Assembly (NCBI GenBank): GCA_949130485.1
Contig: OX422183.1
Coordinates: 5,236,636 to 5,300,635, forward strand
Direction of reading: 5' to 3'
DNA from: Agelas oroides
Taxonomy: Eukaryota > Porifera > Demospongiae > Agelasida > Agelasidae
Length of the DNA stretch: 64,000 nucleotides
The notes beneath the pieces are model-generated. The model worked only from the letters and a program-made list of their open reading frames with translations, was not told the DNA's origin and did not search any database. Below, in pieces: positions 3,867-26,415 of this stretch; positions within the stretch are counted from its first letter, which is position 1, and every line of letters begins with the position of its first letter. The translations under genes and the position numbers were made by a program.

Positions 3867-4527
3867 ACACAGGCCCTATCAGAAAACAGTAGTCTCTCGT
3901 TTGTGCATCCCAAATGGATCTTCATATGCCACCAGAAGCAATTATGTGTACCCTTACAGCCATATATAGTTGTTCCAACTTGACCTAGTTGTTAATAGAC
4001 ATTCCCAGTTTCATTAATGTTTTAGACGTCATTTATACAAGTTGGTTGCACTTGTAAATGTTGATCTTTATTTTGGTGTAAATTAAGTGCTCTGTTGACG
4101 TTTTTACTGATGACCAGTCAACTTGAGCGGCTGCTATGTGACGTTTATCTGTGGGGGAAACACGCCTAATATTGAATTCCTTAACGGTTAAATTAGCAAC
4201 GTCACCGTCACAATCAGACTTCCGGATGTAAAATGAGTCGTGTAATCGAGCCGTATGAATACTATCCTCTCTGCCCATCCGTAACTTCCTATATACTTAT
4301 AAAGAACTCGTTACCCTTCCGAGAGGCTGACTTCCGTGCTGTACTTGCCAGAAGCGTGAGCGAGTTTCAAGTGGTGTGGCATTCCACTTCCAAGAAGCGG
4401 AACTCACCGTTTAACGCCTTCCCGTTGGGCCGAAGGGATAAAGACCCTCAGTACATCATAAAGTTTGAACTGGCAAAGGCAGCTCTGTGCTAGCCTGGCC
4501 TTTGTACGAACTGCGTGTGTCGGAACA

Positions 4528-4537
4528 ACTTCCGGTT
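4528..4537 (-). promoter_or_regulatory. ETS-type motif upstream of the SIR2 exon
   Basis: ACTTCCGGTT is the reverse complement of AACCGGAAGT, an ETS consensus, 38 bp before the ATG. A second one (ACTTCCGGAT) lies near 4218-4227. Both are in the GC-richer stretch just upstream of the coding start, so they may belong to the core promoter. Function is inferred from the motif only. Confidence 0.4.
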
Positions 4538-4575
4538 GGTGTTTAGATCTGCAGAGCAGAACGAAGAGAACAAGA

Positions 4576-5422
4576 ATGGCGCTGGATCCTACCGTACATG
4601 TAGACCCCAATCGCTGCATTTGTGTCGTTGGACCGCAGATTGCAGCCGAATATTTGTCGTCGACTGAGCGCGCGCGTACTCCTGCTGTCTTCTCGTATCG
4701 TAGGCTAGTGGAGTCAGGCATCCAGCGCGTCTTAGAGGTCGAATCGTTCCAAACGGACGAGGAGAGGGTGCGCAAGCAGACACTCCTGGTGAATGCATAC
4801 GAACTAGAGCCCGCCTTTGCATCGAACAAGGTGGTGGAGACGCTGAAAGCCCACGGATGCTATGAACAGTGGTTGGCGGAAATCTTCTCTTCTCTTCGCT
4901 GTGCTCCCACGCAGCGAGGCACTAACGCCACAATCGACCATCTCCTTCACCTGCAAGATAAAGGGATGCTGCTAGTGTACTCGCACTGCGATTCCGTCCT
5001 CGATACGGCGCTAGGTTGCGAGCCTATCCTTCCCGACAGCGAAGATGCCGTGAGAAGCTGGGCGTTGAGACGCACTTCCGGTCTTCTGCATATCCACGGC
5101 GTGCATACGCATCCGGCTTCAATGAGATGGGACTGCGTCGCTTACGACAGTGCTGTGGGTGGAAGTATTGGGGGAAGAGTGTTGAAGGATTTGTGCAAAA
5201 CCAGAACAGTCCTTTTTGTTGGATTTGATGGTGACTACTTTGACCCGCTTCTCCCCAAGTTTGCAAAGTTGTTTGCCAGTGCTGCACACACACCAGCACG
5301 ATATCCTCTCATGATGTCCTTAGGCTCCAGGCCTTCCACCCACCCTTCCTTCCTCACTCTCAAGTTTTCACAGTCAATCACCTTGGACAAGATCCTGCAA
5401 CCTTCACTCACACCCAAACATG
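4576..5422 (+). CDS. FAM118-like gene, exon 1 (SIR2-like domain)
   Basis: Codes for 282 residues plus one base. The donor is ATG|GTGAGG at 5423, phase 1. The exon is noticeably richer in CpG than its surroundings, as expected for a 5-prime exon near a promoter. If the donor were not used, the frame would run on 42 more codons to a stop near 5550, and that extension has no protein-like character. Confidence 0.8.
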
Positions 5423-8400
5423 GTGAGGCATTCAGTGAGAGCTTTTGCCAATGTAGTTTCAAATTGAAACAACATGTAGGAGCTTGTTTTCCTGGTATGA
5501 GTGTGTTAATGATAATCACTGATAAGAGTGTTAATTTTTCTAAAATCTGATTTCATGGAAATATTTGAAGATAGAGCATCCTTATGAAGCATAGTTTATT
5601 GTCTTTAGCTACTTGGTGAGAATGAGCATTAATTTACAGCAGAGTAAATTCCCTAACAACTGCAGTAGTAACCGCATAAAATTTTCTTGTGAAGTCATTA
5701 CTGAATAAGGTATCTACCATTATAGGTTGGATTTTCAACATGTTAATGAATATTCATTGTAGCGTAGCCCTTTCTAAGCTACCTTCATGGAAATACCAAA
5801 AGGCAGGTAGGTACCGTTATGAAGCATGTCTACTTTGTGAGAAAGGACCTATCATTTTTTAAGAATAGAGTAAACCCCCTCACAAGTGTGCATAAAGGGG
5901 ACAAGCCTATCTTAAGCCAATCACTGACTTCATGGAAAAGCCAACAGACAGGCACCCTTACAAAGCCTAGCTACTTCAGAAGAAAGAACATCACAGAAGC
6001 AGAGTAAATCCCCTCATAAAGGCTATCTTAAGCTAATCGCCAACTTCATGGAATCACCAAAAGGTACAGCATCCCTACATGTGATGTGTAGTTCTAATGT
6101 TTGCTTAGCAGCTTCATGAGAAAGAACGTTACTTTTTTAAATGGCAGATCTAGAGTAAATCCCCTAACTACGTAGTGACTGCATAAAGAAACTTGCAATT
6201 TTATTAGAATCTATAATTAGGCTGGGGATTATAGCTAATTTTTTTCCTGGTATGATGTTACAAATGGCTTTAGACTATATTCATGGAACTTTATTAGTCT
6301 CTGTGGAAGTTGTATCTAACACAAAGTGTGATCGAATTTGCTGTTTTCATGGAAGCGCAAAGAAAGCCAATGTTGTTGTGAAGTAGACCACTTTAAAGGA
6401 ACGTTTCAAAAGCCTCATCTGTAACAAGAGTGGACAATGAATGCCTAATGTGACTGAACAAAGGTGTACAGGTACCTGAAGTAGGAACTGACAACCAAAG
6501 ATCAACCAATATTAATGCTGAACATGATTATAGCCCATTTTCCTGCCTGGCTTGTCATATTGACCTGAAATGGGACTTTTTGAATAGCCTTTCATGCAGC
6601 AGCCGTAACCAGGGTAACCCATGACAGCTAGTACAATAGGAAGAACACATAAAGGGGAAGCACTTATCTTGTAAATAGCTTATTGAGAAGGGACAATGTT
6701 ATCAATGGTAAGTGTCTAGAGTAGTGGACAGTATCGTTAAGGAATTGGGTTAATAGGTTACAATACCCTGGACATCCTTCCATTTGAGGTAGACATGTGT
6801 AAATGGCGCCAGCGTGGTTTAGCCGTCTTTCCATCTCAGATGGACTGAGATTGTAGTCATCACAAAACTGTAGCCTAGGCAACACACAAAATCGCTGCTC
6901 ATATCAATCTTATACCGGGTGTTGCCTAGTAACGGTTACCTAGGTAATGGGCTACCTTAGGTTATGGGCTACCTAGGTAACCTGTTACCCAGGTAACAGG
7001 TTACCCGCAGGGCGGCAATGTGGACAACCAAATCAAATTTTATGGACTAGCACAACCAGTGTAACCTAGCAACATTGGTGACATTTCAAAAAATGTTGGG
7101 AGATAAAAAACATTTACTGCTGTAAGGGTGGTGGCTAACTACAACAATTATCTCACGATCTCATTCGTCCTTACCACATTTTGGGTAATAGGCCCAAGAA
7201 TCTGACCAGAATATTTTGCACTTGGGCTGCGGGGCTGCGGGCTGTGGGCTGCGCACGACACTAAATATGGAGCCCTTCGTTGAATCTTATCTTGCAGCAG
7301 TCTTAGAGAACAATAGCGCTGGTGTCTAGAAAACTCTATTATGGTTCGGCATTAGCATAAATATGGTTTGTGTCGGGTGCAATTTAACCAAATACCTAGT
7401 GCATAGTTGCATAATTTAGGTGACAATTTACAAGTGATTCACTCCAGTTGCAGTCTGTCCTTCCTGTGTGTTATCGAGCCCTGTAACTGCATTCCATGGT
7501 TTGACACAAAGCCAGAAAACGGGAGGAAACGTGCAGTGATTCTTTTTCAGTGTACGGCTTCACAAACACTACCTGGTGACTGACTTAGGTTGAGCTAAAT
7601 CTACACAGTCTGGCCCAAAACGTTTTTTTTAAGAGGTTGGCGAACTACAAGATAGTTCCGTTTCTCTCCTTCCTATACATATGGTTCATTAATACCTTTC
7701 ACTTGTGAAATTCAGCTATGTCCCAGTGCATTGAGAACTGACATTATGTTACCATGGAGATGCTACTACCCCCACTGTTTGGATAAGGCCAGCCACCTGA
7801 CTGGCATTTTGTGCGTGAGATAGCAGTCCCCATCTCCCGGTCATCCCAGCACAGCTGATAAGGCCTGGGTATTGGCCGAAACATGTCCTGTGCAGTGGAT
7901 GACTTTGCATAACATCTAGGCCTGCCATTTTTCAGGGAGATGTGCTCCATTGCTTGTCACATCAATGGTGGATTCAGTCATGAAATATACGATCTCTGTC
8001 GTGTTTTTACTTATCAAGTGATCTGTTCAAATGCACATCCAATTCAGCATCTTAGGTGGAGCAAAAAATTGGTTACACATTAGCCCCCCAAGTTATTAAT
8101 GCTGGCTAACGTGTCTGTGATGTAGCCCAGTTCCCAGACTCCTTCGTAAACACGTGAAGAGGGTCTGGTGTCACAAGTGACATGCGTTGTCACATAGGTT
8201 GGGGCCTTCTGCGTACAAAACCTACGTTTTACAACTGGGACTTAAGCTGTCTGACAGCTTAGACTGCTGCACGGTATGGTTTACAAAGGGCCGATAAGGC
8301 TACAAAGCCCCTGAGGAAATTTGAGAAGAAGCTATGAGATCATCTTTGCCTCCAGTTTTCGTCGTGTGTATAATTCTGAATTCTGGCAATCTCTCAAATT

Positions 8401-10110
8401 GGAGAACTCTGCACCATGTGACAAGAAAAGTCGCTCAGAACACCAGACCCTCAGATACGTGCATAAGGGTCTGGGCACGAGACTATCTTCAAGGTGGATG
8501 TCTTTACGGAAGATATTTTCTCCATCTTTGAACTGCACTGTTAAATCACCATCATGTCGCTGACATTAGCTACACAGTGTGAAGAGTAACGAGGAATAAT
8601 TGACAGATCGAGTTCATCAATTTTGAAAGTGACAGGAAGTATCGCCTTTTAGCATTCCTTGGCTCTTCCTCTTTGTATAATTATGCCACAATTTTGGTAA
8701 TTTATCATTCTTTCCTGCTTCTTTCCTCCTTTGTTCAATCAACAATAATCCTTTAACTCATTTAAATAATTAATAGTTATGGATTGTTTTTGTTACGCTA
8801 ACAATCAGCATGTGAAAGATTTGTGACTCTTCTATTTTTGAAATCATAGTGAAAAAAATAGCAGCCACGGCATCTGATTGAAGAAATATGGTATTTTGAA
8901 ATCACCCATCTGATTGGGGACCAACAAGAAGATATTTTGTCTAAAGTGGTGGTTTTGTGCCAGACCAAATGAGTCTTCTGGTGAGAGACAGTCGGCTATG
9001 TGATGATGTAATCATACTGGTATGCGGACCGCTTCTATTTTGAAATTGAAGTCGCAAAATAATGTAGCCGCTGCGTCTGATTCAAATCGCAAAAAAGTAG
9101 TAGCCACTGCGTCTGATTTGGGAATACGGTATTTTGAAATCACCCTTCTGATTTGTGACCAACATCCAAATATGTCTAATGTGGTGGTTTAACTAGTTTT
9201 GAGCTAGACCACATGTTCTCTCTTGGTGAGCTACGCGATGATGTAATCATACTGAATTTTCCACAGGAATTTCCACTAAAAGCTTTTGCAAATATGGAAG
9301 AACTTTTGAGCTGTTTGTCTTGAAATCACTTGGCAGTACAGCTGACAAAGTAGATCCAGTTGGGAATATGCGGCACCGGAAATCCCATTCACCTGACCCT
9401 CACCCCACCTGTGCTCCAATGCTAATCCGGACTTCTAGTGCCATGTATCCCAACTGACCCGAGCATATGGGACAAACAAGGGCTGTTTTTATAAACCATT
9501 TTCGCCTTACACTGCTACCGACATCTATGGCAACCCTCCAATTACATCGTTTATGTAGCACTAATTATTGCTAGCTTCCAACCTCCTCCGCCTGTAATTT
9601 ATAGCTGAATAGCAACCCATACGTGTAGTTTGATTACTATTGTGTCAAATTGTTCTTCACCCACCAGAAATGGAAGTATTGAATGAGAAAGGATGTACAG
9701 TGGCATAGTAACGCACTCTAATCGCATGTAAACTTTGTGTAGTTAATTTGGCTTCAAAGGACACTTTCATCGTTTGTGTTTTGGTGTGTTGTTCACAGGT
9801 ATGACAGGAAGTGAAGACAGCGCAAAGCCCGTGAACGTCCTCCTCCTCTATACAGACAAGAACAGCTGTCTGGAAGCAGCGGACAAGCTGAGGAGCATGA
9901 ACGCCATCAACGCCTCTCATTTGCAGCTAAAATTGGAACAGTTTGATCAACTATCCATGTGTGTGGATCGAAATGGATTACAGAACCTCTGGAGACTACT
10001 GTTTGGTGAACCCACGGCAATCCACGTTGGGTTACTCGGAATCAACATCAGTGGTACCATTACTGTGTGGATGAAGGGGAATCCTTATATCGCTATGGAG
10101 CGTAACCATG
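4576..10110 (+). CDS. FAM118-like SIR2-domain protein (exons 1-2; may continue into the ETS gene)
   Basis: Join 4576-5422, 9799-10110. The first exon resembles FAM118A/B, animal proteins with a SIR2-like Rossmann fold related to NAD-consuming SIR2 domains of bacterial defence. The match rests on layout and motifs: a helical stretch, then a HLLHLQDKGMLLVYSHCD strand block (residues 122-139), LHIHGVHTHP (171-180) and TVLFVGFDGDYFDP (211-224), the same order as in FAM118. The ATG at 4576 has A at -3 and G at +4; an in-frame ATG at 4465 has no family support. Odd points: the N-terminal glycine motif reads VVGPQIA (17-23), and the usual Thr-Asn-Tyr-Asp reads Ser-His-Cys-Asp (136-139), so the catalytic Asn appears absent while the later His-Gly is kept. 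Exon 2 (residues 283-386) is a compact alpha/beta-looking segment I do not recognise. The block ends at a phase-1 donor, so the gene continues; the next phase-compatible exon seen is the ETS exon at 18093. Confidence 0.72.
5423..9798 (+). other. Intron 1 of the FAM118-like gene
   Basis: This 4.4-kb intron has no coding signal. At 5560-6200 there are loosely repeated blocks containing 'agagtaaatcccct' and 'ttcatggaa'. At 6893-7006 is a degenerate cluster of CCTAGGTAAC foldback ends. A stretch at 8120-8530 (cagactccttcg... / ...gggtctgggcacgagac) is related to sequence near 48690-49045. At 8840-9260 a block of about 210 bp containing 'gtagccactgcgtctgattt' is repeated imperfectly. The short open frame at 7744-7950 on the minus strand resembles one at 23160 on the plus strand (HISLK-G-PRCY), which suggests a shared repeat rather than a gene. 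Confidence 0.7.
9799..10110 (+). CDS. FAM118-like gene, exon 2 (unrecognised domain)
   Basis: The acceptor is TTGTTCACAG at 9789-9798. The exon opens with two bases completing a Gly codon, matching the phase-1 end of exon 1. It encodes about 104 residues beginning MTGSEDSAKPVNVLLLYTDK, a hydrophobic strand followed by a helix, and later a HVGLLGINISGTITVW strand pair. The donor is CATG|GTGAGT at 10111, again phase 1. Reading through the donor hits a stop within seven codons (10128-10130), so an unspliced short form is possible. No family is assigned. Confidence 0.7.
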
Positions 10111-11128
10111 GTGAGTTTTCTACATTATAGACTGAACGTCCTGTTTCCATGGTATTTGGGACGATTCTGAGCGAGCCCCACACTAGTGTGACTGCATTGT
10201 GCCATGTGCTTGTGTACCAGTGAGCATCCAGTTTCCATGGTGATTACATCATAACGGGGATCGATCACCAAGCATCTGTTTGTTAGCGTAGGGCATTGTA
10301 CAGTAACTCGATAATAGGGCCAGACAAGGAGCGGTAAGCCAGAAGTATTTTGCAGTAAAATTCTCACTGGTCGATCACTGTGATCAAGCGACTTTCATGG
10401 AGTGTCGTAGTGATCAAGCGACTTTCATGGAGTGTCGTAGTGATCATGAGTGAAAAGTCCTGTTATCATACATCTAACTCATGCTAATGTATGGGAGTCA
10501 ATGGGGAAGCCTTGCAGCTGCATGCAGTTTATTACTACAAGTCACGTGAGAATCCATATCAGGTACTACAAGTCACGTGTGTGCGTCTGAACGTGCAATG
10601 AATCGAAGGTTCGTATGATAAAATCATTATCACCATAGTACCACTCATTTGTTGCCGTTGACATTGTTACTCATGATGCGCACTCGTAACAATACAGACG
10701 GCAACAAACTTGTGGTATAGCTTTGTACTATGGTGATACTTATATAGTCTCATCCCCAGACCCCACCCCCAGACCCCACCCTCTCCCGAGGAAGAAAACG
10801 CTCTAGTGAACCAAGTTGATTTTCTTGGGCTAGCACACGCTTTTACAACAGTGTAACCTAGCAACGTTTTACACCAAACCTGTTTAAAAAAAAGGTATAG
10901 ATATTTGAATGGAGATTAACAAATTTTCGAAAGAAGAATTTTACTGTTGTAAGAAACATACTATGTACTAATTACTGATCTTGCAATCTCATTGGTCCAT
11001 ACTACTTTTTGGGCCCAATTTTGTTCACTGTTTCTTGCCGGGAGGTGCACGTGGGCTGGGCACAAGACTTGAGAAATGCAGTACAAAGCAGTACAAAGTA
11101 CCTCTGTCTTACCATTTCCTGTTTGACC

Positions 11129-11534
11129 CCAGGGGGGGTAGGACGAGCTCTAAGAAGCACGTGAAAAAATTACATTCCATTCTTAGGTATGCTGAAAGTT
11201 CACGGGGATTTACAGAGATTAAACAAGTAAGCGCTTGTAGCATCGAAGTTTGCCGGGGTTCAATGGGGTTGGAACACTTTTGTTCTTAGGGTAGAACATC
11301 CCTACATTGTCAGAAAGTCGGAGAAATCCCTGGATATGGGTGAGCTCACCTTCCATGCCGAGAAAACTGCATGCTGCCGATTGAAAACCAAAGTACATGT
11401 TTAGCTTTAGCGCGGCAAACTACTCTCTAAAACTGCACAAAAAGTACTCAATAAAGGCTGCAGCACATGGAATCAGACGATTTCACTAGGCATTACATCA
11501 TCAGATATCTGAGTGGACCTGAACTTGTCCTACC
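11129..11534. mobile_element. Second copy of the CCAGGGGGGGTAGGAC element
   Basis: Closely similar to 49067-49493 throughout. The right end is truncated ('cctacctgg'). Confidence 0.75.
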
Positions 11535-12444
11535 TGGTTTGATCCAATCACTACACAACCTGTTTATGACACTCCGGTAACAGACCACACTCAGCACTTG
11601 ACACAATATCACATAATACCATGGAAACGAGACACCCAGATGGGAGTTATATCCAATTTATACCACATTGAGACAGTAAACTATAACTCATAAACTATTT
11701 TGGTACAATATTATTTACCGAATACACTCCGCTCTTCATCCAATGAAACACTTGGAAAGTGATGTAATGTGGTATATAATATCACATAATACCGTGGAAA
11801 CCAGACGCCCAGACGCGGTTATCATGTGTCCCACTTTAACCCAATGGAATCCTGTTATTGTCAGTGATTCTGTAAAACCTGTATAGACCAGTTTTACCTG
11901 CTTAAATGCTATTGCCGGAAATTGCCAAATTTTATTACTATGCGCCCCATAACTGTGTGTTTTTGCATTTAGAAGGTAGACACGCAAACAGGAGTTATCA
12001 TAAGGTAGCCATATGTGTGCGTCATTTGTGCTTTGAAGGGACGTGCGTAATGCGAAGTGACCTTCAAACCCAACCCAAATGAGCCGGGACATGGCACAAA
12101 GGCGGGAAGCCTTTTGACGGTTGTGAAAAGCACACACTAATTCGATTTCTGTTTTCAGAAAAGAAACGTTTATAAGTTACAAGTTTGAACTCTGGCCTGT
12201 TTCAAGTTTTTGGTCGCTTATCAATCAGTAATGACACTCTGTGATGTCACTAAAGGTAAGTTTTCTCCAGCTGAACCTTTGTCCCAAGGAGTTGCTAATG
12301 ACAACATTACCTCTTTAAATTGTGAGGGTTGCTTTTCCCACTAAAAGAATTACACTTTTTTTCCCTTGAATGAAAGTACACACTGTAGCTATGGAAACAT
12401 AAATAAACGTTCCTTTAGCATGGAGAATAATTATACTGTATATC

Positions 12445-12821
12445 TTGCCTCATTCCCAGGCTCCCATGTACCGGAACACAAATATGCGGGAAGAGCCTGG
12501 TGTCTTTTCTCACATGAGCATGACATAATCGGAAATGCCAGAATTTTCAGAACAGGAAGGCAATGTTTTACACGACATTCATTTAACTATATGTTCAACA
12601 CTTGATGTGCACTCCTTGCTAGCTAGCTAGATATATGAAGTAAGTCACCCACTCTACCTTCACTCTTTCTGCTGTTCTGAGTCTTTGGGTACGCCTTAAA
12701 TAAAGGTCTTTCTACCCTCTATCCTTGACACTGCTCACGTGAGAAAAAATACCAGGTTCTCCCCGCCTGCACAACTTCAATGTTCGCATTCTGGTGCAGG
12801 GGTAGCCTGGGAATGAGGCTA
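12445..12821. mobile_element. Mutator-type foldback element, 377 bp
   Basis: The ends are TTGCCTCATTCCCAGGC / GCCTGGGAATGAGGCTA, flanked by CTGTATATC on both sides. The interior resembles the element at 47464 (cacgtgagaaaa, agcatgac). Confidence 0.8.
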
Positions 12822-12889
12822 CTGTATATCTAAGTCTTTAAAAGAAACCTTTTGTTTTTGTGGGAGCTTGAACTTTGTCCTACAGGGGT

Positions 12890-13075
12890 TTTCAGGTTGC
12901 TTGTCAAACTGCACAAGTGCCAAATACAAAGTCCACTTGTTTAAACTAACCACTAATTAAATTGTTACACAAGCAGCTTTAGTGAAGGCATTAAATCTGA
13001 TTAGTGGTTAGTTTAAACAAGTGGACTTTGCACATGGCACTTGTCCAGTTTGACAAGCAACCTGAAAACCTCTGT
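12890..13075. mobile_element. Palindromic element, 186 bp
   Basis: Arms of about 75 bp ('aggttttcaggttgcttgtc' ... 'gacaagcaacctgaaaacct') also pair 'gtccacttgtttaaactaac'. The loop is short. Confidence 0.75.
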
Positions 13076-13999
13076 AAATGGACTTGTGCTACTGTTATCA
13101 GTGATGATGATCAGTGATGTCACAAAAGTTGTTAGAATATGGTTCTTCATTTCTAGCTGATCCTTTGCCCCAAGTAGTTGCTAAGGAACAGTGTGAGGGA
13201 TACTTTCCAATCAAAAAATTGTAAGCAGTTACTAAGGAATGACGCTTTCTTCCTTGTAATTAAAGTTGCCTATTGTAGCTATGGGAACATAAATAAACTC
13301 CATATATAGCAATAAGCTAAAGCAACAAGAGAAGGCACTTGTGTGAGGGTGGCCAACTTGTTGTTATTATAGTAGTTGCTAAGAAACAACATTACCTTGA
13401 CCTACATGTCCACAATTGGGGGGTTAAGTTATTGGATGTCGTTTTACATCCCAGCTTCGACAAACGTGATAAGAACTGAAGAGCAAATTGTTATTTTGTA
13501 AACAACAAGCAAGGCTTTCATTTTGGATATAAACAATTAACGGTTTTGAGGCTCAGTCATGAGGTGAACCATAGCAACCAAAAGATGAGTGTATCATATG
13601 ATTTTGTCCGTTCCCACAAGAACCGGATGTCCTGTGTTCGATTCCCACCAACTGCCGGCCTTTTTCACTTTAAACATCTAAAAATCTCTTTTAACTATAG
13701 CTGGCAGTTCGTTAGCTCTCACCCTCTCAGTAATAAAGGTAACCATAGCAACCAACTACCTTGTCATCGGCAGGTATGCTAGTGATAATAGCAATCTGAA
13801 AGACTTATTTTGGCTTCGTTTTATGCTTATCTGGAATAAAGCTCCCATTGTTGCTACTCTGCCCCCACCCCTCGTCTATACAACCAATCATGGCAAAGCT
13901 AATTAACCTACGGGAATTGCAAGTTGCAATTTAGGAACAAGAACATGCAAGGCAAGCACAGATACCGCCACGAAACAGACAAGCCAGAGAATGACAGAG

Positions 14000-14351
14000 A
14001 TTGGTCTACACTGGATCAAGTAAGCAATTAAGCTGCGCACAAACAACAAACAAGATGACAGGTTGGTCTACACTGGATCAAGTAAGCAAGCTGTGCACAA
14101 ACAACAAACAAGATGGAAGAGGTTGGTCTACACTGGATCAAGCAAGCAAGCTGCGCACAAACAACAAACAAGATGGCAGGTTGGTCCACACTGGATCAAG
14201 TAAGCAAGCTGCGCACAAACAACAAACAAGATGGCAGGTTGGTCTACACTGGATCAAGTAAGCAAGCTGCGCACAAACAACAAACAAGATGACAGGTTGG
14301 TCTACACTGGATCAAGTAAGCAAGCTGCGCACAAACAACAAACAAGATGGC
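14000..14351 (+). repeat. Minisatellite of about 58 bp, 6 copies
   Basis: The unit contains 'tctacactggatcaagtaag' and 'cgcacaaacaacaaacaaga'. Copies are near-identical. Open frames across it are artefacts. Confidence 0.9.
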
Positions 14352-16403
14352 AGAGATATAGTTTCGTAAAGCTCAGCCCATGTGTACTAGAGTCACAGTT
14401 GCTGCTAGGAAACCATTTTTTTCAGCTGGCTTTCCCAGCATACGTAATTGCCATGTCTGTTGCAGCTGTGAGACTTCATGGCCATATAAATTTTACTCAA
14501 AAATGGCTTCAACCTATGAGAATGTGAATTTAAATTTTCTGGAGGGTATGCCCCTAGTGGTTTGTACTTCACGACCTTCCGCAACCCCCTTCCTTGTTAA
14601 AATCCTGTATGTATAAGGTACCAGGCCCTCTCTCCCACTTGGCCATAAGTTGCTTAGTCTTGTGTGAACCAAGTCAAATTTCTTTGGCTAGCGTACACTT
14701 TGTGACTAGTTGTAACCTAGCAACATTAGCACCACACCCACTCAAAAAATGTTTAGATGTTTAGTTGAGGGACAAAAGTTTACTGCTGTAAGGGAATTGG
14801 TACTATATAATTATCACTATAGTACAAAGCTATACCGGAAAATATCACGAGTTTGTTTCCATCTGTATTGTAACGAGTGCGCAGCAACAATGCCAATGGC
14901 AACAAACGAGTGATATTCTTTCCGGTATAGCTTTGTACTATGGTGATAATGATTTTATCATACGAACCTTCGATTTCATTGCACATTCAGATGCACGCAC
15001 CTGACTTGTAGTACCTGATATGGATTCTCATGTGACTTGTAGTACTGATACGGATTCCCGCGTGACTTGTAGTAAAAAGTGTGGCTTTTTATAAACTGTG
15101 TGCAGCTGCAAGGCTTCCCCATTGACTCCCATACATTAGCATGATTATGATAAATAATAAACAATCTCTTTGAATAGGCCCAAGAAGTTTAGCTTTGCTC
15201 ACCTGACTGTTTCTCAAGGGGGGTTGCATGTAGGCTAGGAACCAGACTACTCATGCTGTGGAAAGCTGGGTGGGGGCCTGGGGCTAATAAATAAGATTTC
15301 TCCTCAGTTATGTGGAGGAAAGCCCAGTAGTAAGGGCTTTGACGGAAGTGGCTTGTCAAAACACTAACCTCCCTCTTAAGTAATAGTTTACATTAGCTAA
15401 CACGGTTAGGGTTCCGGATTCTCCCTAATTGGTAGTAACCAGAAGCGGTTTCAATCCCGCTGTCTTCCTTGATTGCTTGTGGCTACTGCAGCTGATAACT
15501 TCAGCATCTTGGCGCCATTATGCTGTATTTTGGGGCACTCCTAAGACACTATAGTCTGATCTGATTCCCAGACTGAATGGGAATGAGACTTGCTATATAT
15601 GGTATAACCAGTACGCTATAGTATGACTAGTGTATGGGAATGGGAATGAGACTACACTGTTGCTATGGTATGAACAGTATGCTATAGTATATGACTAGTA
15701 TAGTATGATTGGGAATTGGAATGGAATGGGAATGAGACTATACTTGCTATGGTATGAATAGTATTGTATGAAGGGAATGGAATGGGAATGAGACTATACT
15801 TGCTATGGTATGAATAGTATTGTAGGAAGGGAATGGAATGGGAATGAGACTATACAAACTGTTGCTCTAGTAAGCCAAATTACCCAATAAATTTCATTTT
15901 CTTTCTTAATTAACAATTTTTCCTAGAATGGGTGGTTGCTTGGAAATGGTAATCAGTATTTAACATTGTGGTATGGGCAAATCTTCCACTTGTTCCCAGG
16001 CCTCCCCCGTTTTCACCTTCCGTTTGTGTTCACGATAATACACAGAAGCGAAAGAGCGGCAAAAAACAATAACGAGAAAGGCCTGCTGGTCTCATTCATC
16101 ATGTGAATGATGTTAGGTGGACGCAAAGTGGATGTGGGGAGGGGAGGGGGATGAGGGGGAGGGAGCAACCACAAAAAAAAAACACATCAAGTTCTAGAGG
16201 CAGCGAAGACCTCGGAATGAACCTCCGTCAGAGGCACTGCATTAGAGCTAGAGTACCGTGCAGTATCTCAGACATCGCAAGCCTACAGTGAAAACCAACA
16301 AAATTACAGAATTAGAATGGTGCTACGCACCCTTAGAACAGGACACCAAGAACTGTGCATATCTGAAGCCCTGAATATTTTCAGCAGGAAGTCTTGTGCA
16401 ATA

Positions 16404-16789
16404 CCGTATAGCGGGAAATTTTCGCTGGGTGCAAATTTTCGCGATTTTCACGGACAGACCTGCTTCCGCGAAAATAAAAACCGCGAATAAATGAACTAAG
16501 ATGGAAATTGCTGACGTCATTACGTGCGTACGTTGAGTACCGTGTGAACGTGATGGTTCTCTACAGTCTGTCTGCCCTCTAAATGGTTGCTATAAAGAAG
16601 AATCAGCCTCCTACTGTACAAAATACCAACGAAACCGTAAGAGACGGTCCGAAGATGTCGCATCAACCGGTAGGGGTGTGGTCAGAGCGTCCCGCGTTCC
16701 GCGAAAATAAAAACTACGAAAATTTCTTCTGAAGAGTCTGGACGCTTTTCCGCGAAAATTTGCACCAGCGAAAATTTCCCGCTATACGG
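16404..16789. mobile_element. TA-flanked inverted-repeat element (CCGTATAGCGGG ends)
   Basis: CCGTATAGCGGGAAATTTTC and its complement are flanked by TA on both sides, consistent with a Tc1/mariner-type non-autonomous element. Related ends occur near 31020-31230, 56580-56665, 58965-59050 and 60000-60085. Confidence 0.75.
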
Positions 16790-18055
16790 TATGTCGAGCT
16801 TGGCATCGCCACCCTATCCCCACCTCTCCTCCACCTTCTGGTATTCATGTGATGAAAACGCCTGTTTTTCACCACTCTTCCATTTCCGCATATTAAAACT
16901 GAAGAGTGAAAAGAGATTGTGGCTTCTCAAAAGGGAAATATGGGGCAACAGGAGACGGACGTCTACAGTGAAGCCGCATTATGGAGACATCCGTGTGAAG
17001 CCATTATATAAACACACGTGTCCTATATACATGACATCCAGGATGGGCTCGTTTTATGTTATTCGACATTGGGACTCAGGTCAATGATAACAAGCGAAAG
17101 TTCCTGCCACACTAAGGATATGATTACAAAGTATTTCCAACTTATAAAAGCATTTTATTTGCAATCAAACCCCTTCTTGGTCAGTTGGGACTGACTGGAA
17201 ACTGTATGAATGCAGACATCCTTATTGCCAAAGCATCCCATCCTGTCTGTTATGAAGCCCAGTGCATCCCATTGTATTCAGCTGCTGAATAATAAGATCC
17301 TGGCGGAAGTGCCAACAAGGTGACAGTGAGTTGGCAGACACCAACAGAGGAGCTTAACACCTTGAGACATGCCAAGGTGGTAGTTTATACCTCAATGGAT
17401 GCCACCTCTGAATAAGAACGACACCATGTTCCCATGCACACTCCCTGGAGAGTGACACTTCATTTCTATCAGCCATGGAAATTCAATTCGCAATTGTATA
17501 GAAAAGATTCCCTTGAATTTTATGTGTGGGGATGTGCTTAGCAACGCATGAGTACAGTTACAGTATATGCAATAGCTTGTCTGAGTGGTGACTAAACCCA
17601 AGGTCTTACGTCATCTGGATTAGAAGATAGAACTGCTCATTCAGGTATATTCTTAGTGTACAATGTGTACGTGGATTGGAAACACATACAGTAGGCGTCA
17701 ATAAAACGTTCCCCGTAGTTGTACTACGATCATAGTACACTACAGTACGGAATGAAAAGTACGCTAGATGAACGCAATCATTATGTTTCACACGGAACAT
17801 AGGTTAATTCCCTTGAATTTTATGTGCGGGATATGCTTAGCAACGCATGAGTACAGTTACAGTATATGCAATAGCTTGTCTAAGTGGTGACTAAACCCAA
17901 GGTCTTACGTCATCTGGATTTGTTGTATAATCTCATTCCCAGATCCTGGGCCTCTAGTTTCTAACCTCCAATATTTTGATATTTTTTTCCTGATATTTAG
18001 AATGTTCTGATCGAACTTTGACCTGTGCAATTAATACTGCATTTCTTTACATGCG

Positions 18056-18058
<3 letters not shown>

Positions 18059-18092
<34 letters not shown>
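18059..18092 (+). repeat. (CA)n at the acceptor of the Ser/Pro exon
   Basis: Sixteen CA units end in CACAG, which is used as the 3-prime splice site for the exon at 18093. No classical polypyrimidine tract intervenes; TTCTTTACATG lies just upstream of the repeat. Confidence 0.8.
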
Positions 18093-18094
<2 letters not shown>

Positions 18095-20096
18095 CGTACT
18101 GATGCAACCTCCACACCCACCTCACACCCCACACACCCCACCATACCCCTTTCCCTAAGCACAAGTGTCTCCGTAATCAGCTCCGTTTGGGCCCCAATCA
18201 CAAGTCCAACGGTCTCGAAGCTCCCCCCTTCCACTCGTCCCACCCTCCCCTCTCCACTGGTCTGTTCTACTACAAAACTTTCACCCCTGAAAGGAACCCC
18301 TGAAGTTCTGAAGCAAGTTCCGATGCTTGGAAGCAGCGGTTTACACACACAGAAAACACTCTACCTGCACACTCCAAATAAAGCGCACCAACAGGTACGA
18401 CGAATCCAATCAGAACAGGACAAACTGGGCTCTACTGACCGCCTTGACGAATCAAGAAAATCTTCAGCTGAGAGAAAAAACGGAATGCTAATCCACCAAG
18501 AAAGTGCCCCGACATTCGTCTACACTTCAGGGGGCGTAGTTGCTTATCCATCTGATCCTAGCCATACGAATATTTCTCCAAAGTTGATATCCGTACCGAA
18601 CCCATCAACGCTCGCAACCGGTAGCAACCTCACAGAGCACAAGATAGAATACATCGACCAATATCAGCAGGGAAAAGTAGCCAGCGTTCCTGGATCGAGA
18701 GGGCTGGCTCAGAAGAAGCAGAGGGAGGAGGGGAAGGGGAAGGAAGATGCCACTGACCCGAAAAAAGGTGTCACAAAACCTCAACACGATACTGATCCCG
18801 ATTTCGTTCAGGCAAAGCTGAAGTTCATTTCCGAGGCAAGAGAGTGGAGTAAGAATGTCGGTGTCGAGATTTCTAAAAAGGTGAAGCCAAATGTGTCAAA
18901 TCTGCCAGTTACAGTTATGTCCAGTGGCTTTATGATGAACCCTCTGGTGTCCCTAAAAGCACAGAAAAGTTCACCGCAACTCTTGTCTTCCAGCTCAGTG
19001 GTGACTCCCGAGGAGCAAGAAAAAAGTTTAAAGCAGCTCTTTGAACCTTTTGTACCTCAAGGCACCACTGGTGGTGTTTCGATGGCCACAAAGTTGTCTT
19101 TGAAATCCCTCAGCGTGTCCACGGCTCAATCCCCTTCCTCCATGGCTAGTTTGTCTCCTCGGCACTCGCCCCACCTTTCTCCGAGACGCTCGCCAAAACC
19201 ATCACCAAAACCCTCCCCTATTCAACTTCCCATGTCCCCCAAGAGTTCTCCCGTTCATCCCTTTGTCATCGGTCAGTCTGCCCCTGGAGTATTCTCATAT
19301 TTTCCCACAAACCCTACGCTCCCAAGTCCAGCCCCCCTTCTATGTAGTCCCTCTGTGTCCATGTCTCCGTACGCGGCCATGTTAACCACGTACCAAGCTG
19401 CGATGCAGCATCTGATCCCGCCCTCGCCCCAAAGTGGAAAGCCTGTTGTCGTGACCGACCCCTCAGCTGTACTCCAGAGCTTACAGAACCTCCAGGGAGC
19501 CGTCCCGGACAAAGTTCCATGTATCATGCCCGACGGAACTGTCACACTTGTCTCTATGAGTGCACTAACACAGAATGGTAGTAATACTGAAATGGGAATG
19601 AAAGACGACCACCCGAAATCTCCATTATTACAGGGGCAAAAGCGACCCCGGGTGCCCGAAGTGAGTGCAGATTCAAAGTTATCGCCCCCAAAGCGTAGAC
19701 GTTCTAGCTCTCTCCCTGATATCACCATGGCAACAGCTCAGAGGCTAAACCGGGAGCCACAAGAGGCACCCATGCAACAACTGGAGGTGGAACAGGTGCC
19801 ACCAATGAGACGAACTCCGCCACCAAACATGATTCAAATTCCAAAAGAGATGAAACTTGGTGATCCCATGTTGGGATTTCCAACTCCACCTCAAAGTAGC
19901 CCTGCGCCGCACCTCACTGCCTCTCCATTTATCCTGTCAAATGTGGCAGCGTTCCACTCCCCTCACCCAATGACGCCCCTCACACCGGAACACGATGGAC
20001 TGAGCAGAGAGGACATGAAGGAGATTAAAGAAATTGTCGAAGCTCACACACCTGCGATCCTCCCTCCTTCCCCGGAAGGGACCTCCCTACCTCCTT
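18093..20096 (+). CDS. ETS gene, Ser/Pro-rich exon
   Basis: The exon begins after ACACACACAG at 18083-18092 and starts with two bases finishing a Gly codon, then reads [20 protein letters not shown]. The frame is open back to a stop at 18032-18034, so 18093-18322 looks coding although it precedes the first Met. The donor is CCTT|GTAAGT at 20097, phase 1. If unspliced, the frame would end at 20122. Confidence 0.82.
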
Positions 20097-23000
20097 GTAA
20101 GTTCAAAAAATATACCATATAGCAGTGTTTTTTTTTTTGAATAACACAATTCTCAAATCTAGATTTGTGGAAAAAAGTGTGGGATGATTCTGTCGTGAGT
20201 TTCGATTAGAGGTGCGTGGGTTATGAACCATAATTCCAGGCTGCCATGCAATATTCTCCCTCCTCAAGTAATTTTAGGACTTTTTTCTTTATTGCTTTTT
20301 AATTGAGTGAATATACACCCCCTGGTTTAATCTAGAGGGAAGTTTATTTTATAGTGCATAATATATGGCTCAGTGTATATTGGCCGTGTCTCTTGGGAGG
20401 AAGGAAGAAATGTAGCAGGTAATGATACTCCATTATGGTCAATAACCCCCTCGCTTTGTGGACACAGCCTGAGGACAAGGGTTGGGTATTGTCCCGCCTA
20501 ATTGGGTATTGTCCTACCTAATTGGGTATTCTCCCGCCTAATTGGTTCCTGTTATTATTGCAGTATAAACAAGATAGTGACATTTTTTACAACTTCCTGT
20601 GGTACATGGAAATTATACTCCTCCCTCCAGATTACTAGTGAATAGGGGTGCATGGATTATGGCCGGCATTAAAATGAGCATAATAGGTATGCAAAATCAT
20701 TGAGCATAATGTGAGCATAATAGGCAAATTCTCTGAGGAAATTACGTCATTTAATTAAAGTTTTGCGTAAACTTAGTGATTCTAAATTTCAATATTCATT
20801 GCAAATAATTAAAAAATAACCACCTGCATGCCCACATGGTTGAGAATCCCAAAATTGTCTGAGCGGCCAGAAATGTTTTTACCTTTACAAAGTGGGACTT
20901 AATCTGTGTATGTAGAAAAGAATACACAGCAGCTTCTGGCCTTAGCGGACTGTTAGCCTCGTTCCCAGGCTCTCTCCTCAAAAAAGGGGGGGAAGAGAGA
21001 GCCTGGGAACGAGGCTAGCGGACTGTAAACTCTTTTTAAACACCTGAATTTGTTTCACTTGAGACTCTACTTTTAGCATATACCATAGATCTGGAAATTT
21101 TCGTGTTACAAAATTTTCATGTTTTAAATTTTCATGTAAAAATATTTTCGTGGTCTGGGATACCCATGAAAATTTTTTGACGGTATTAAATCGATTCTAC
21201 GTTCCCAAGTTTGGTGATCTGGAACGAGACTACACACGCCGAGAAAACATGGAGTAGGAGCAGCTTGCTGCATAGTGTCTACCACACAGCTGTTGGCGAG
21301 CTACTCGCGTGGGAAAGAGAACCAAAGAACATTGTAGGCACGTACTGTGGTAGTAAAGACAGACGATTCATCGGACACTCGCTGAGCGGAAAGTTGTAAC
21401 TTGTTTTCCATGAGTCACCTGCGGGTATCGAAGAAGAGGCCGTCTCGCGCGAACTGACTAGCTGGCTGTCCTGTGAAACCGTGTGTACAAAAATGTGCTG
21501 ACGGTAATAATTATCCGTTGTAAAATATATTTTATTTTCGTGGTTTAAATTGCGTACCACAAAAATATTCTTACAACGAAAATTTCCAGATCTACGGTAC
21601 ATACCTTTTAATACACCATATCTTCAGAGGCTCTGACTCAAAACTGAACCCGAGTGCACTCTCAGTAAGCAGACTCGTGAGCTTAATGATGCCCACAAGC
21701 ATGCAATAGTCAGCATTCTCGGTTGGCAAACACCTGCTCAGAGCCCAAGCAGCCTTCCCTACAGAGCCTTCCCTACAGGGTGAAAGTAGTGTTTTCTAAG
21801 CCTTTTTTTTGCAGCCAGGGCGTGAATTGGCCCACTTGGTGCCAACCATGGCCCAAGCCTAGCAACCACTAGGTGCACAGCACCCTGCGGGTGGCCCCAC
21901 CCTTTCTGCTAATGCAGAACCCATGTGCAAGCACGCAGAGACTGTCTTTTCTGTGCAGTGCTCAGTATGATGTAACCAAAAGTGCACTATATAGGGTTTA
22001 AGGTTTTAGAGGAAGCTTGACACTAGCCTCGTTCCCAGGCCTACCCCGTTTTTTGTTCTTCGGTTTGCGTTCAATTTAATACACGGAGGCGGAAGAGCGC
22101 GAAAAACGGGGAAGGCCTGGGAACACTTGTCACGTGAATGACGTCTGGTGGACACGAGGTGGACGTAGGGGGGGCGGTGCCCAACTACGAATTCGTGTGC
22201 AATAAACCATAGAGCCTGGGAACACTTGTCACGTGAATGACGTCTGGTGGATGCGAGGTGGACGTAGGGGGGGCGGTGCCCAACTACGAATTCGTGTGCA
22301 ATAAACCATAGAGCCAGTTTCTTACCGGTGAAGTCAAGTACTGTCGATCTCGTGAACGTCTGGGGTCCGGGCTATCGTTGGAGCGCTCGATGATGAAGTA
22401 TAGTACGTTATTTGTAGTTGGGCACCGCCCCCCCTACGTCCACCTCGCATCCACCAGACGTCATTCACGTGACAAGTGTTCCCAGGCCTTCCCCGTTTTT
22501 TGCGCTCTTCCGCCTCCGTGTATTATATTGAACGCAAACCGAAGAACAAAAAACGGGGTAGGCCTGGGAACGAGGCTAGCTTGACACAGTCACATGCACT
22601 ATGTGTTAATGAGCATTCCAAAAACTAGAAGCTGTGAATGCAAGAATCAGAAACGGTCTATGGCCAAGATCATGGGTTTGGGGGTGGGGGGGGGTTCATG
22701 GTGCTGAAATTGTCTAAAGAAACATGGCAACGCTTCTGTGACTTCCAAACATTCATGTGGCTGTTGAGAGCTAGATGAACAACGGTGACCAATCTCAACC
22801 AAAGGCAGCTTCAGCATGGTTGAAAATACCCTCGGACCCTGGTGAACCTAGCAGGTTAGAAGCTTCTGTAGCCCAGAAATCGTTGTTGGAACACAGCAGA
22901 CCTTACCAATCAGGGTCACGTCTGTCTCTGACCTGATTTGAACTAGTATAGGTATCTTTCCCAGAAAAGCTTATCATACTTAGAAATCAGCACCCGGATA

Positions 23001-26000
23001 ACATACTTAGAAATGTAGTGCATACCCAGTCTCTATGGAAACAATGGCCGTCCAGGTGTCTTTCCTGGAAAAGTATTGTGCCATAAATGAAGGCTTATTT
23101 ATGATGTTGTTTCGCTGACCCACCCACGAAAAGTTTGTCCGACAGTAGTCAAAGGATCAATGAACCACATCTCCCTAAAGGAAGGTACACCTAGATGTTA
23201 TACAAAGTCACCCACTGCGCATCACAGCCAATACCAGATTTCATCAGCTGCACTGGGGTGGCTGGGGGATGGGGGTCTGCTACCTCATGCAGTAAATAGT
23301 TTGCTAGACTGGTTTGCCAGACTGGTTTGCCAGACTGGTTTTCCCTGTGAGAGGGTAAGATCTGGTAACTTGACTTGCTTCAACAGGGAAAGTTGTGTTC
23401 TTTCAAACCTGAGCATACGTGGAGGACTTCCTGTAGGAACCTACCTTACGCTTTGTGGCTTACACTTGCTTTGATAAATAATTTGATTAAGACCAAACCC
23501 AGCTTGTTTCTGCCCTAATCGAGCGTGATGGACTTCCTATATGGATGGCTTCACACAAACCATTTCCCTGTCACCATGGTAGTTTCTTGTTACCATGGTA
23601 ACATGGCGCCACCAATCTGTGCCCTGATGCAACATCTCGTAAAGGTTAGGGACAGTGGTGTTTTTATATAGCCACATGGTTCCAGAAGGAATTTAATTGA
23701 TAGAGTTCTGACGCTTATACACCCCCACATGTACCACCATTCACAGACACAATATATCCATCCACCTGCTTCATGTATTATATAAGTATCACCATAGTAC
23801 AAAGCTATACCGGAAAATATCACGAGTTTGTTGCCATCTGTATTGTTACGAGTGTGCAGCACAAGTAACAATGCCAACAGCAACAAACGAGTGATATTTC
23901 CGGTTTTAGCATGAGTTAAACATATGGTGCTCTATATTATCATGCGTCTAACTCATGCGAATGTATGGGAGTCAATGGGGAAGCCTTGCAGCTGCATGCA
24001 GTTTATAAAAAGTTTACTCCAAGTCACACAAGAATCCATATCAGGTACTACAAGTCACATGCGCTATGTCTGAATGTGCAATGAAATCGAAGGTTCGTAT
24101 GATAAAATCATTATCACCATAGTATCAAGCTATACCGGAAAAAATATTACTCGTTTTACCCCCACATGTACCACAGACACAATATATCCATCCACCTGCT
24201 TCATGTATTATATAAGTATCACCATAGTACAAAGCTATACCAGAAAATATCACGAGTTTGTTGCCGTCTGTATTGTTACAAGTGCGCAGCACAAGTAACA
24301 ATGCCAACGGCAACAAATGAGTACGTCTAACTCACGCTAATGTAGGGAGTCAATGGGGAAGCCTTGCAGCTGCATGCAGTTTATAAAAATCCATATTTTT
24401 TACTCCAAGTCACGTAAGAATCCGTATCAGTACTACAAGTCATGTGAGAATCCGTAACAGGTACTACCATGAATGTGCAATGAAATCGAAGGTTCAGATG
24501 ATAAAACCATTATCACCATAGTATCAAGCTATACCGGAAAAAAACATCACTCATTTGTTGCCATTGGCATTGTTACTCATGCTGTGCACTCCTAACAATG
24601 CACACGGCAACCAACTCATGATATTTTCTGGCATAGCTTTGTACTATGGTGATACTTATGTAGTACATAGTAAGCAGCTGCCGTATAACAAGTGCCCGCC
24701 CATTTTAATTTGGGGAGAAATTTACGTACTAAGGACAGTTGTAGTAATTATGATTCCACCTTTCTGACACTGGTAACCATGGTAACCATGATAATACACT
24801 GGTTTGCCAGACTGGTTTTCTCTGTGAGGGATCTGGGCACGAAACTAGTAGGTAACTTCAATGGGGAAAGTTGTGTTCTTTCAAACCTGAGCATTCATGG
24901 AGGACTTCCTGTAGAACCCTACTTTGTAACTGATTGTGGCTTATGCCCGCTTGTTTCAATTGCTAATATTCATATTCAGTTGTTGTCATACAAATGCAAC
25001 AGCTGTGAAGCCTATAAGGTTATTTCCCTCCAAAATTGAGTAAGTGAACTTCCTGTGTGGAATCTTAGTTACTACATCAAGTACAAAGCTTTTCCTTTTG
25101 TGGCTAACACTTGCTTTACTAAATAACTTCATTAAGATGAAGCCCAGATTGTTTCTGCCCACATCTGAGCCTTTCATGGTGGACTTCCTGTATGTAGCCT
25201 TGGTTTCACACAAGTCATTTCCCTGTCACTATGGTAACTTCAGTAATGCTGGAGCCACTGTTCTGTGGTCTGATGCAATATCTTGCCATGTGTTGTACAA
25301 CCAAGTCACAGAATGAGTTCATAAAAGTGATTGTAGTAATGATAGTTGGTACTGTGTGGGTACTGTGTGGGTGATGTGTGGGTGGGTGTAAGCCAAGTGT
25401 CTGAATTTGTTAGTGAAAGAGAATGTGCATATTTAGGGAACCTAACAGCTGATACTTCCTCTTCCTCACAATACCTTGCATGGTTTCTCTTGTGCAACAT
25501 AATGACCTGCATTTCTCTTTCCTTCTCCTCTCCCTTCTCCTGTTCTTCCCTCTCTTTCCCCCTTCTCCTCTCCCTTCTCCTGTTCTTCCCTCTCTTTCCC
25601 CCTTCTCTCCTCTCCCCATCCCTCCTCTCCCCTCCCCTCCCCTCCCCTCTCCTCTCTCTCTCCTCTCCTCTCCTCTCCTCTCCTCTCCTCTCCTCTCCTC
25701 TCCTCTCCTCTCCTCTCCTCTCCTCTCCTCTCCTCTCCTCTCCTCTCCTCTCCTCTCCTCCTCCTTCCCTAGTTCCAGCTGGCAGAGGCCCCATACAGCT
25801 TTGGCAATTTCTCCTCGACCTACTGCTCTCACCTGACAAATCCCACATGATCCAGTGGACGGGAAATGGGTATGAATTTCGTATCGGAAAGCCAGAAGAG
25901 GTTGCAAAGCTCTGGGGTGCCCGTAAGAACAAGCCGAAAATGAACTATGACAAACTGAGTCGAGGGTTACGTTATTATTACAGCAAAGGCATAATGGATA

Positions 26001-26149
26001 AAGTGCCTGGAAAGAAACTAACGTTTAAGTATACCTGCGATGTGCAGCACTATGTGAGATCGCGAAACAGCCAGTCAGTACATCCGTCTTTAAATCAACA
26101 TGCTAACGTAGGTAGCGATTCTGACATTGAGTTGAAATCAGAACTGTAG
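18093..26149 (+). CDS. ETS-domain transcription factor
   Basis: Join 18093-20096, 25773-26149. A long Ser/Pro-rich exon is spliced in phase 1 to an exon with a complete ETS domain (25787-26056): the family's Trp residues in IQLWQF, IQWTG and KLWG, and recognition helix [14 protein letters not shown] with its two DNA-contacting arginines. The domain looks closest to the ETS1/GABP/ERG type by eye. It sits near the C-terminus, followed by about 30 residues ending in an acidic tail ([11 protein letters not shown]). The N-terminal exon has SP/TP-rich tracts ([20 protein letters not shown]), a basic [10 protein letters not shown] nuclear-localisation-like motif and no recognised fold, typical of a regulatory region with MAP-kinase-type SP/TP sites. 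No Pointed domain is visible. The first in-frame Met (18323) has a weak context and the frame is open back to the acceptor at 18092, so at least one 5-prime exon probably precedes it, possibly the SIR2 exons. Confidence 0.9.
20954..21017. mobile_element. Mutator-type foldback element, 64 bp
   Basis: TAGCCTCGTTCCCAGGC ends, almost no interior, and the exact 9-bp target duplication GCGGACTGT (20945-20953 and 21018-21026). Confidence 0.88.
21082..21599. mobile_element. Inverted-repeat element with ATAGATCTGGAAATTTTCG ends
   Basis: The left end 'agatctggaaattttcgtg' pairs with 'acgaaaatttccagatct'. Repeated 'ttttcatg' modules lie near the left arm. It sits in the ETS intron. Confidence 0.65.
22024..22578. 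mobile_element. Mutator-type foldback element, 555 bp
   Basis: Long inverted arms, an internal duplication of about 100 bp ('cacttgtcacgtgaatgacg' occurs twice on one side), and the exact 9-bp duplication GCTTGACAC on both flanks. A related, more decayed copy lies at 38612-38935. Confidence 0.88.
23760..24660. repeat. Array of palindromic CCATAGTACAAAGCTATACCGG units
   Basis: At least three hairpin units of about 120-150 bp with inverted 'aaagctataccggaaaatat' ends and 'ggcaacaaac' interiors are joined by 'cgaaggttcgtatgataaaa'. Single copies lie at 10622-10745 and 14807-14948. Confidence 0.75.
25505..25770 (+). repeat. (TCTCC)n pyrimidine microsatellite at the ETS acceptor
   Basis: About 265 bp of nearly pure C/T, with a CCTTCTCCTCTCCC-type part followed by about 30 TCTCC units. 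It runs directly into the CTTCCCTAG acceptor, so it is the polypyrimidine tract of the ETS-domain exon. Open frames rich in Ser/Leu/Pro or Glu/Arg here are repeat artefacts. Confidence 0.9.
25773..26149 (+). CDS. ETS gene, last exon with ETS domain
   Basis: The acceptor CTTCCCTAG ends at 25772, at the end of a 260-bp pyrimidine tract. The split codon T|TT gives Phe and the frame runs [12 protein letters not shown]. The stop TAG is at 26147-26149. A poly(A) signal follows 260 bp later. Confidence 0.93.
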
Positions 26150-26409: not shown

Positions 26410-26415
26410 AATAAA
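26410..26415 (+). terminator. Poly(A) signal of the ETS gene
   Basis: A canonical AATAAA lies in an AT-rich 3-prime UTR with a GT-rich stretch just after it (tgtttgtgtac). It is placed as expected for the ETS transcript end. Confidence 0.7.

Follow-up and report, generated by a model that had tools for sequence, protein, structure and literature searches.

We found that a gene of the sponge Agelas oroides, located in a 64,000-nucleotide stretch of DNA (hereafter the window; G000:C1:5236636-5300635), is likely to encode a fused protein in which a SIR2_2 domain is followed by a small block, a Ser/Thr/Pro-rich linker and an ETS domain, and to have been duplicated long ago, leaving an inverted sister nearby. 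Judging from exon structure, it is very likely that the four exons are joined in one mRNA. The fusion, already proposed in a first-pass annotation of this DNA, is supported by the plan of the paralogue, by a gap of only 2 kb at its critical junction, by the lack of a promoter-like island outside a repeat in the gaps between exons 2 and 3, and by the lack of a common extra exon above control in these gaps.

Plan of the Candidate SIR2-ETS Gene

The features of both loci are listed in table 1. The annotated plan of four ordered exons on one strand was recomputed and confirmed throughout: the joined exons give a frame of 1,179 residues without stops, and all three introns are GT-AG and in phase 1. 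The ATG of exon 1 is flanked by A at -3 and G at +4; upstream of it the frame is open as far as a stop, without a further Met. Ser, Thr and Pro make up 35% of exon 3.

Table 1. Features of the SIR2-ETS Locus (Window Positions) and Exons of the Inverted Paralogue (Positions on C1)
Feature	Position	Strand	Basis
Exon 1: SIR2_2/FAM118B-like domain with the start codon, aa 1-282	4576..5422	+	phmmer vs PDB
Exon 2: block of 104 aa without a known family	9799..10110	+	Pfam, PDB, paralogue similarity
Exon 3: Ser/Thr/Pro-rich linker of 668 aa; contains a basic patch and the RSxSxP motif (KRRRSSSLP)	18093..20096	+	Composition, paralogue
Exon 4: ETS DNA-binding domain, C-terminus, stop	25773..26149	+	Pfam Ets, PDB
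AATAAA, possible poly(A) signal 3' of the ETS exon	26410..26415	+	Sequence only
5' flank, single-copy; likely holds the promoter and 5' UTR, and includes the left part of the CpG peak entering exon 1	3900..4575	+	
Repeat of high copy number, ends inverted; forms the CpG peak of the exon 2-3 gap	16403..16793	.	
Paralogue exons	5347105-5347975, 5327646-5327981, 5323976-5325616, 5323218-5323528	minus	tblastn and open frames

Taken alone, the window's locus leaves the fusion undecided because the acceptor of exon 3 is mediocre. It terminates a (CA)n run and reached the 90th percentile of the 4,044 AG sites in the window on a home-made score, while the remaining five acceptors of both loci exceeded the 99th percentile on the same score. 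In exon 3 an in-frame Met first occurs at 18323, in a weak context, and all 76 codons back to the acceptor are open, which agrees with the annotation that the ETS block has no convincing start of its own. However, 14% of 5,000 mononucleotide shuffles of these 76 codons were likewise stop-free, so the open frame by itself proves little. Their codon score hardly separated the right frame (9.5) from the other two (8.6 and 7.2); it omits stops, of which the other two frames contain 4 and 2. Thus, the phase match and the absence of an obvious ETS start are weak evidence for fusion, and the earlier caution that two adjacent genes form a serious alternative was right at this locus alone.

An Inverted Paralogue with Corresponding Parts

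Among 11 ETS matches found genome-wide, one lies on the minus strand, 22.6 kb beyond the window and about 60 kb from exon 4. A tblastn comparison of the four parts of the window's gene with C1:5186637-5400000 recovered, around this match and in the same order on the minus strand, the SIR2 part at 33.7% identity (E 9e-45), 40 residues of exon 2 (E 0.003) and the ETS part at 60% identity (E 5e-39). Between the last two lies an open stretch of 558 codons rich in Ser and Pro. The resulting paralogue (G000:C1 5323218-5347975, minus strand) has GT-AG introns in phase 1 at all three junctions and a product of 1,052 residues. When the exons of the two genes were aligned, none of 500 shuffles scored as well for exons 1, 2 and 4; the similarity of the Ser/Pro exon is marginal, since 1 of 300 shuffles was as good.

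At the DNA level, the two loci shared 29 scattered matches in a minus-strand comparison at E<=1e-5. Many of these recurred in several positions, and none lay over any corresponding exon pair. Therefore, the duplication looks old. Introns 1 of the two loci shared short matches only (best E 0.002).

The critical junction is clearer in the paralogue, where the Ser/Pro exon follows exon 2 at a distance of 2,029 bp, behind a strong acceptor (TTTTTGTTTTCTTTTAG|G). The corresponding parts in the same order, the phase-1 junctions, the short gap and this acceptor all favour one fused gene. Nevertheless, it has to be weighed that a FAM118-like gene and a co-oriented ETS gene may have been duplicated as a block, with a frame match by chance (1 in 3) that both copies inherited. 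Block duplication of two genes also preserves order and phases, the exon-3 acceptor at the window's locus is weak, the Ser/Pro exon of the paralogue has an in-frame Met 9 codons from its beginning, and both gaps contain poly(A)-like hexamers, 18 at the window's locus and 2 in the paralogue. But under this explanation the 2,029 bp of the paralogue must hold a last exon, a poly(A) site, a new promoter and a first exon, or else the ETS promoter must lie inside the SIR2 gene, and the gap contains neither a CpG island nor a common exon above control. Moreover, the similarity of exon 2 ends at the phase-1 donor in both copies, and the reading into the intron does not continue it. Based on these points, we consider two separate genes improbable and a single fused gene the better explanation.

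Putative Promoters and the Gap between Exons 2 and 3

The CpG observed/expected ratio was calculated in 852 windows of 500 bp over a 213-kb region, with these two loci as the only calibration. The regional median was 0.42, and values of at least 1.1 were reached in 1.8% of the 852. Near the SIR2 start of the paralogue the best 500-bp value was 1.27, spanning the start codon. Near that of the window's gene it was 1.17, in an interval beginning at 4651 inside exon 1, and the interval from 4251 had 1.06; the flank at 3900-4575 had a ratio of 0.87 and positions 4200-5100 one of 1.07. The upstream flanks of both SIR2 starts (676 and 525 bases) are single-copy in the genome.

No CpG island was found in the gaps between exons 2 and 3, where the maximum was 0.73 in the paralogue and 0.86 at the window's locus, omitting the intervals that touch the repeat of table 1. 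The CpG-rich segment at 16.0-16.8 kb was considered as an ETS promoter and rejected, since its peak is this repeat (about 390 bp), with a ratio of 1.64 against 0.58 and 0.63 in its flanks and with copies 93-97% identical on numerous contigs (1,293 candidate places, 40 of them scored). A peak formed by a high-copy repeat does not point to a separate ETS promoter. Among the results that weigh against fusion, intron 1 of the paralogue matched the window's exon 2-3 gap near 10.5, 12.7, 14.7-15.0 and 16.2-16.8 kb, with E values from 1e-13 to 2e-6 in the 8 matches listed and the best of them on the high-copy repeat. We took them as probable repeats, since those at 16.2-16.8 kb lie on or beside it and others where DNA matches recur. 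The search for an extra exon common to both gaps (41 x 188 translated stretches) yielded nothing clearly above control, with a best E of 0.012 versus 0.015 on the reverse strand. Finally, a query of spliced exon 2 plus the start of exon 3 revealed no retrocopy carrying this junction, both of its matches being the exons themselves.

An internal promoter or an alternative first exon may in addition let the fused gene produce an ETS-only protein. ETS genes commonly have alternative promoters, and the Met 9 codons inside the paralogue's Ser/Pro exon makes such a start possible there, the first Met of the window's copy being the one at 18323. On the other side, the gaps hold no second island outside the repeat and no common alternative exon above control, and we regard an additional product of this kind as possible, on the unlikely side.

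The SIR2 Part and Its Catalytic Residues

The description of exon 1 as SIR2-like and FAM118-like was upheld. Its best PDB match is human FAM118B (9r3e/9r0p; phmmer E 3.4e-8); 47 residues of the 205 aligned are identical (23%), and FAM118B accounts for both of the distinct PDB sequences found at E<=10. A profile built from both paralogues improved the match to E 3.4e-12. Pfam SIR2_2 (PF13289) reached 18.1 bits on exon 1 (E 0.003), below the curated cut-off of 24.5, and 27.8 bits on the paralogue, above it. Searching the whole genome with PF13289 at E<=0.1 returned one match, the paralogue; since the window's own copy was missed, further weak relatives may have been missed too. An alignment of the SIR2 part and exon 2 of the two copies confirmed no relative among 32 pattern matches in viral_contigs or 92 in genome_contigs.

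In PMC12700824, the activity of FAM118B:FAM118A is said to need N163 and H206, N163A abolishes it, and D255 and W65 are proposed site residues of FAM118B. A single offset along our alignment places W65, N163 and H206 on the residue types named in that text. At the position of the catalytic Asn, N163, we found His137 in the window's copy and Gln in the paralogue. The catalytic His is kept (H174 in HIHG here, HLHG in the paralogue), the W65 position is Tyr and the GTG loop is replaced by GPQ in both copies, and the D255 equivalent is ambiguous, two alignments placing it differently. Structure prediction of exons 1 and 2 used a three-row alignment in which part of the paralogue's exon-2 row was wrongly placed relative to the SIR2 part; it gave a pLDDT of 43.7, too low for the model to be used.

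The absence of the catalytic Asn from both copies suggests that the SIR2 part probably does not cleave NAD and is regulatory instead, and on the same ground the NAD-depleting part of the annotation's analogy to defence proteins is not supported. An active NADase that the ETS part targets to chromatin, so that NAD is cleaved there, would be consistent with the kept His of the HIHG motif and with the aromatic residue at the W65 position in both copies. Yet the N163 equivalent is His or Gln, and N163A abolishes activity in FAM118B:FAM118A according to the same text (PMC12700824); with the GTG loop changed to GPQ in both copies and the D255 equivalent uncertain between two alignments, we consider an active enzyme very improbable.

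Exon 2, Linker and ETS Domain

Exon 2 had no match in Pfam at E<=1 or in the PDB at E<=10. In the linker, the RSxSxP-type pattern occurs once in each of the two proteins, at an aligned position directly after the basic run, a combination that may be a motif of the 14-3-3 and nuclear-import type. The identification of the last exon as the domain of an ETS transcription factor was borne out by Pfam Ets (117.4 bits, cut-off 26.9; 114.9 bits in the paralogue) and by ETS1 as best PDB match (E 4e-36). A Pointed (PNT) domain was not found by Pfam at E<=1 in exons 2-3 of either copy, the paralogue giving Ets only. This domain belongs to a subset of the ETS family, and members may be without one. Long pyrimidine microsatellites precede both ETS exons (25521-25765 in the window, and likewise in the paralogue), where they serve as the acceptor tract. 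Elsewhere in the genome, two ETS exons 60 kb apart (G000:C1:7116070-7116312 and 7176199-7176441) have identical translations and represent a recent or an assembly duplicate.

For the protein as a whole, we tentatively propose a SIR2 part without NADase activity that would act as a regulatory head controlling the ETS domain. With the conserved catalytic Asn lost from both copies, the head would not be an NADase; it might bind a nucleotide-type ligand or self-assemble, and in this way it could control the site or the strength of ETS-domain action, with the basic patch and RSxSxP motif of the linker as a putative phosphorylation-dependent nuclear-import switch. FAM118-type filaments form by head-to-tail self-assembly through the F122 and L32 surfaces. 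A rather doubtful extension would make the protein a ligand- or polymer-gated transcription factor, in which a catalytically dead antiphage-type sirtuin fold responds to an immune or metabolic signal derived from NAD and directly drives gene expression, and in which the two copies might co-assemble like FAM118A and FAM118B.

Relation to Known Systems

FAM118B and FAM118A resemble the SIR2 part of both copies as the best PDB match, through the kept H206 and through the aromatic residue at W65. In contrast, the identity is low, the conserved Asn and the GTG loop are absent, and the SIR2 part continues in frame into exon 2, linker and ETS domain. PMC12700824 restricts the FAM118 clade to vertebrates and to at least 41% identity to human FAM118s, and with 47 of 205 residues identical (23%) the sponge protein falls outside the clade so described. 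The SIR2 exon of the paralogue also had weak sequence matches to bacterial SIR2_2 proteins (KomC, E 0.017; SIR2-like chains, E 0.06; a chain named DSR2, E 0.81). KomC and DSR2 are NADases of bacterial defence, whereas the SIR2 part here is probably not an NADase. With ETS1, ETV1/4/5 and GABPA, the protein shares a full ETS domain, ETS1 being closest in the PDB; unlike these, it has a SIR2_2 domain as its N-terminus, and no Pointed domain was found. On the basis of its domains, it may be classed as an ETS factor, neither a FAM118 nor a working sirtuin.

The annotation had also suggested that such a joining would be a new architecture. Among the matches listed from the open literature (subscription papers and sequence databases excluded), no title or abstract opening reported a SIR2-ETS protein; the component domains themselves are known. 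As both domains are known singly and no report of the pairing was found in this literature, the protein would be an ETS factor that carries a new module at its N-terminus.

According to PMC12700824, FAM118/SIR2_2 proteins have recently been linked to innate immunity, to the loss of NAD and to filaments, and PMC13372038 states that in the sponge Amphimedon queenslandica native bacteria induce factors including all ETS family members. If one protein holds both parts, an antiphage-type fold would be linked directly to transcription, and if it is a gated factor, it would form a sensor-to-promoter circuit in a single protein, kept as two diverged copies. The two natural copies offer paired material for studying ligand binding, polymerisation and the gating of DNA binding.

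Neighbouring Features

To the right of the ETS exon, the window contains open frames with an SH2 domain (Pfam, 73 bits) at 55031-55660 and a UBA domain (24 bits) at 61498-62040. Near-identical open stretches and tandem repeats also recur about 3.4 kb apart at 56.5-58.9 and 59.9-62.0 kb (56520/59940 and 56664/60088), which suggests a local duplication.
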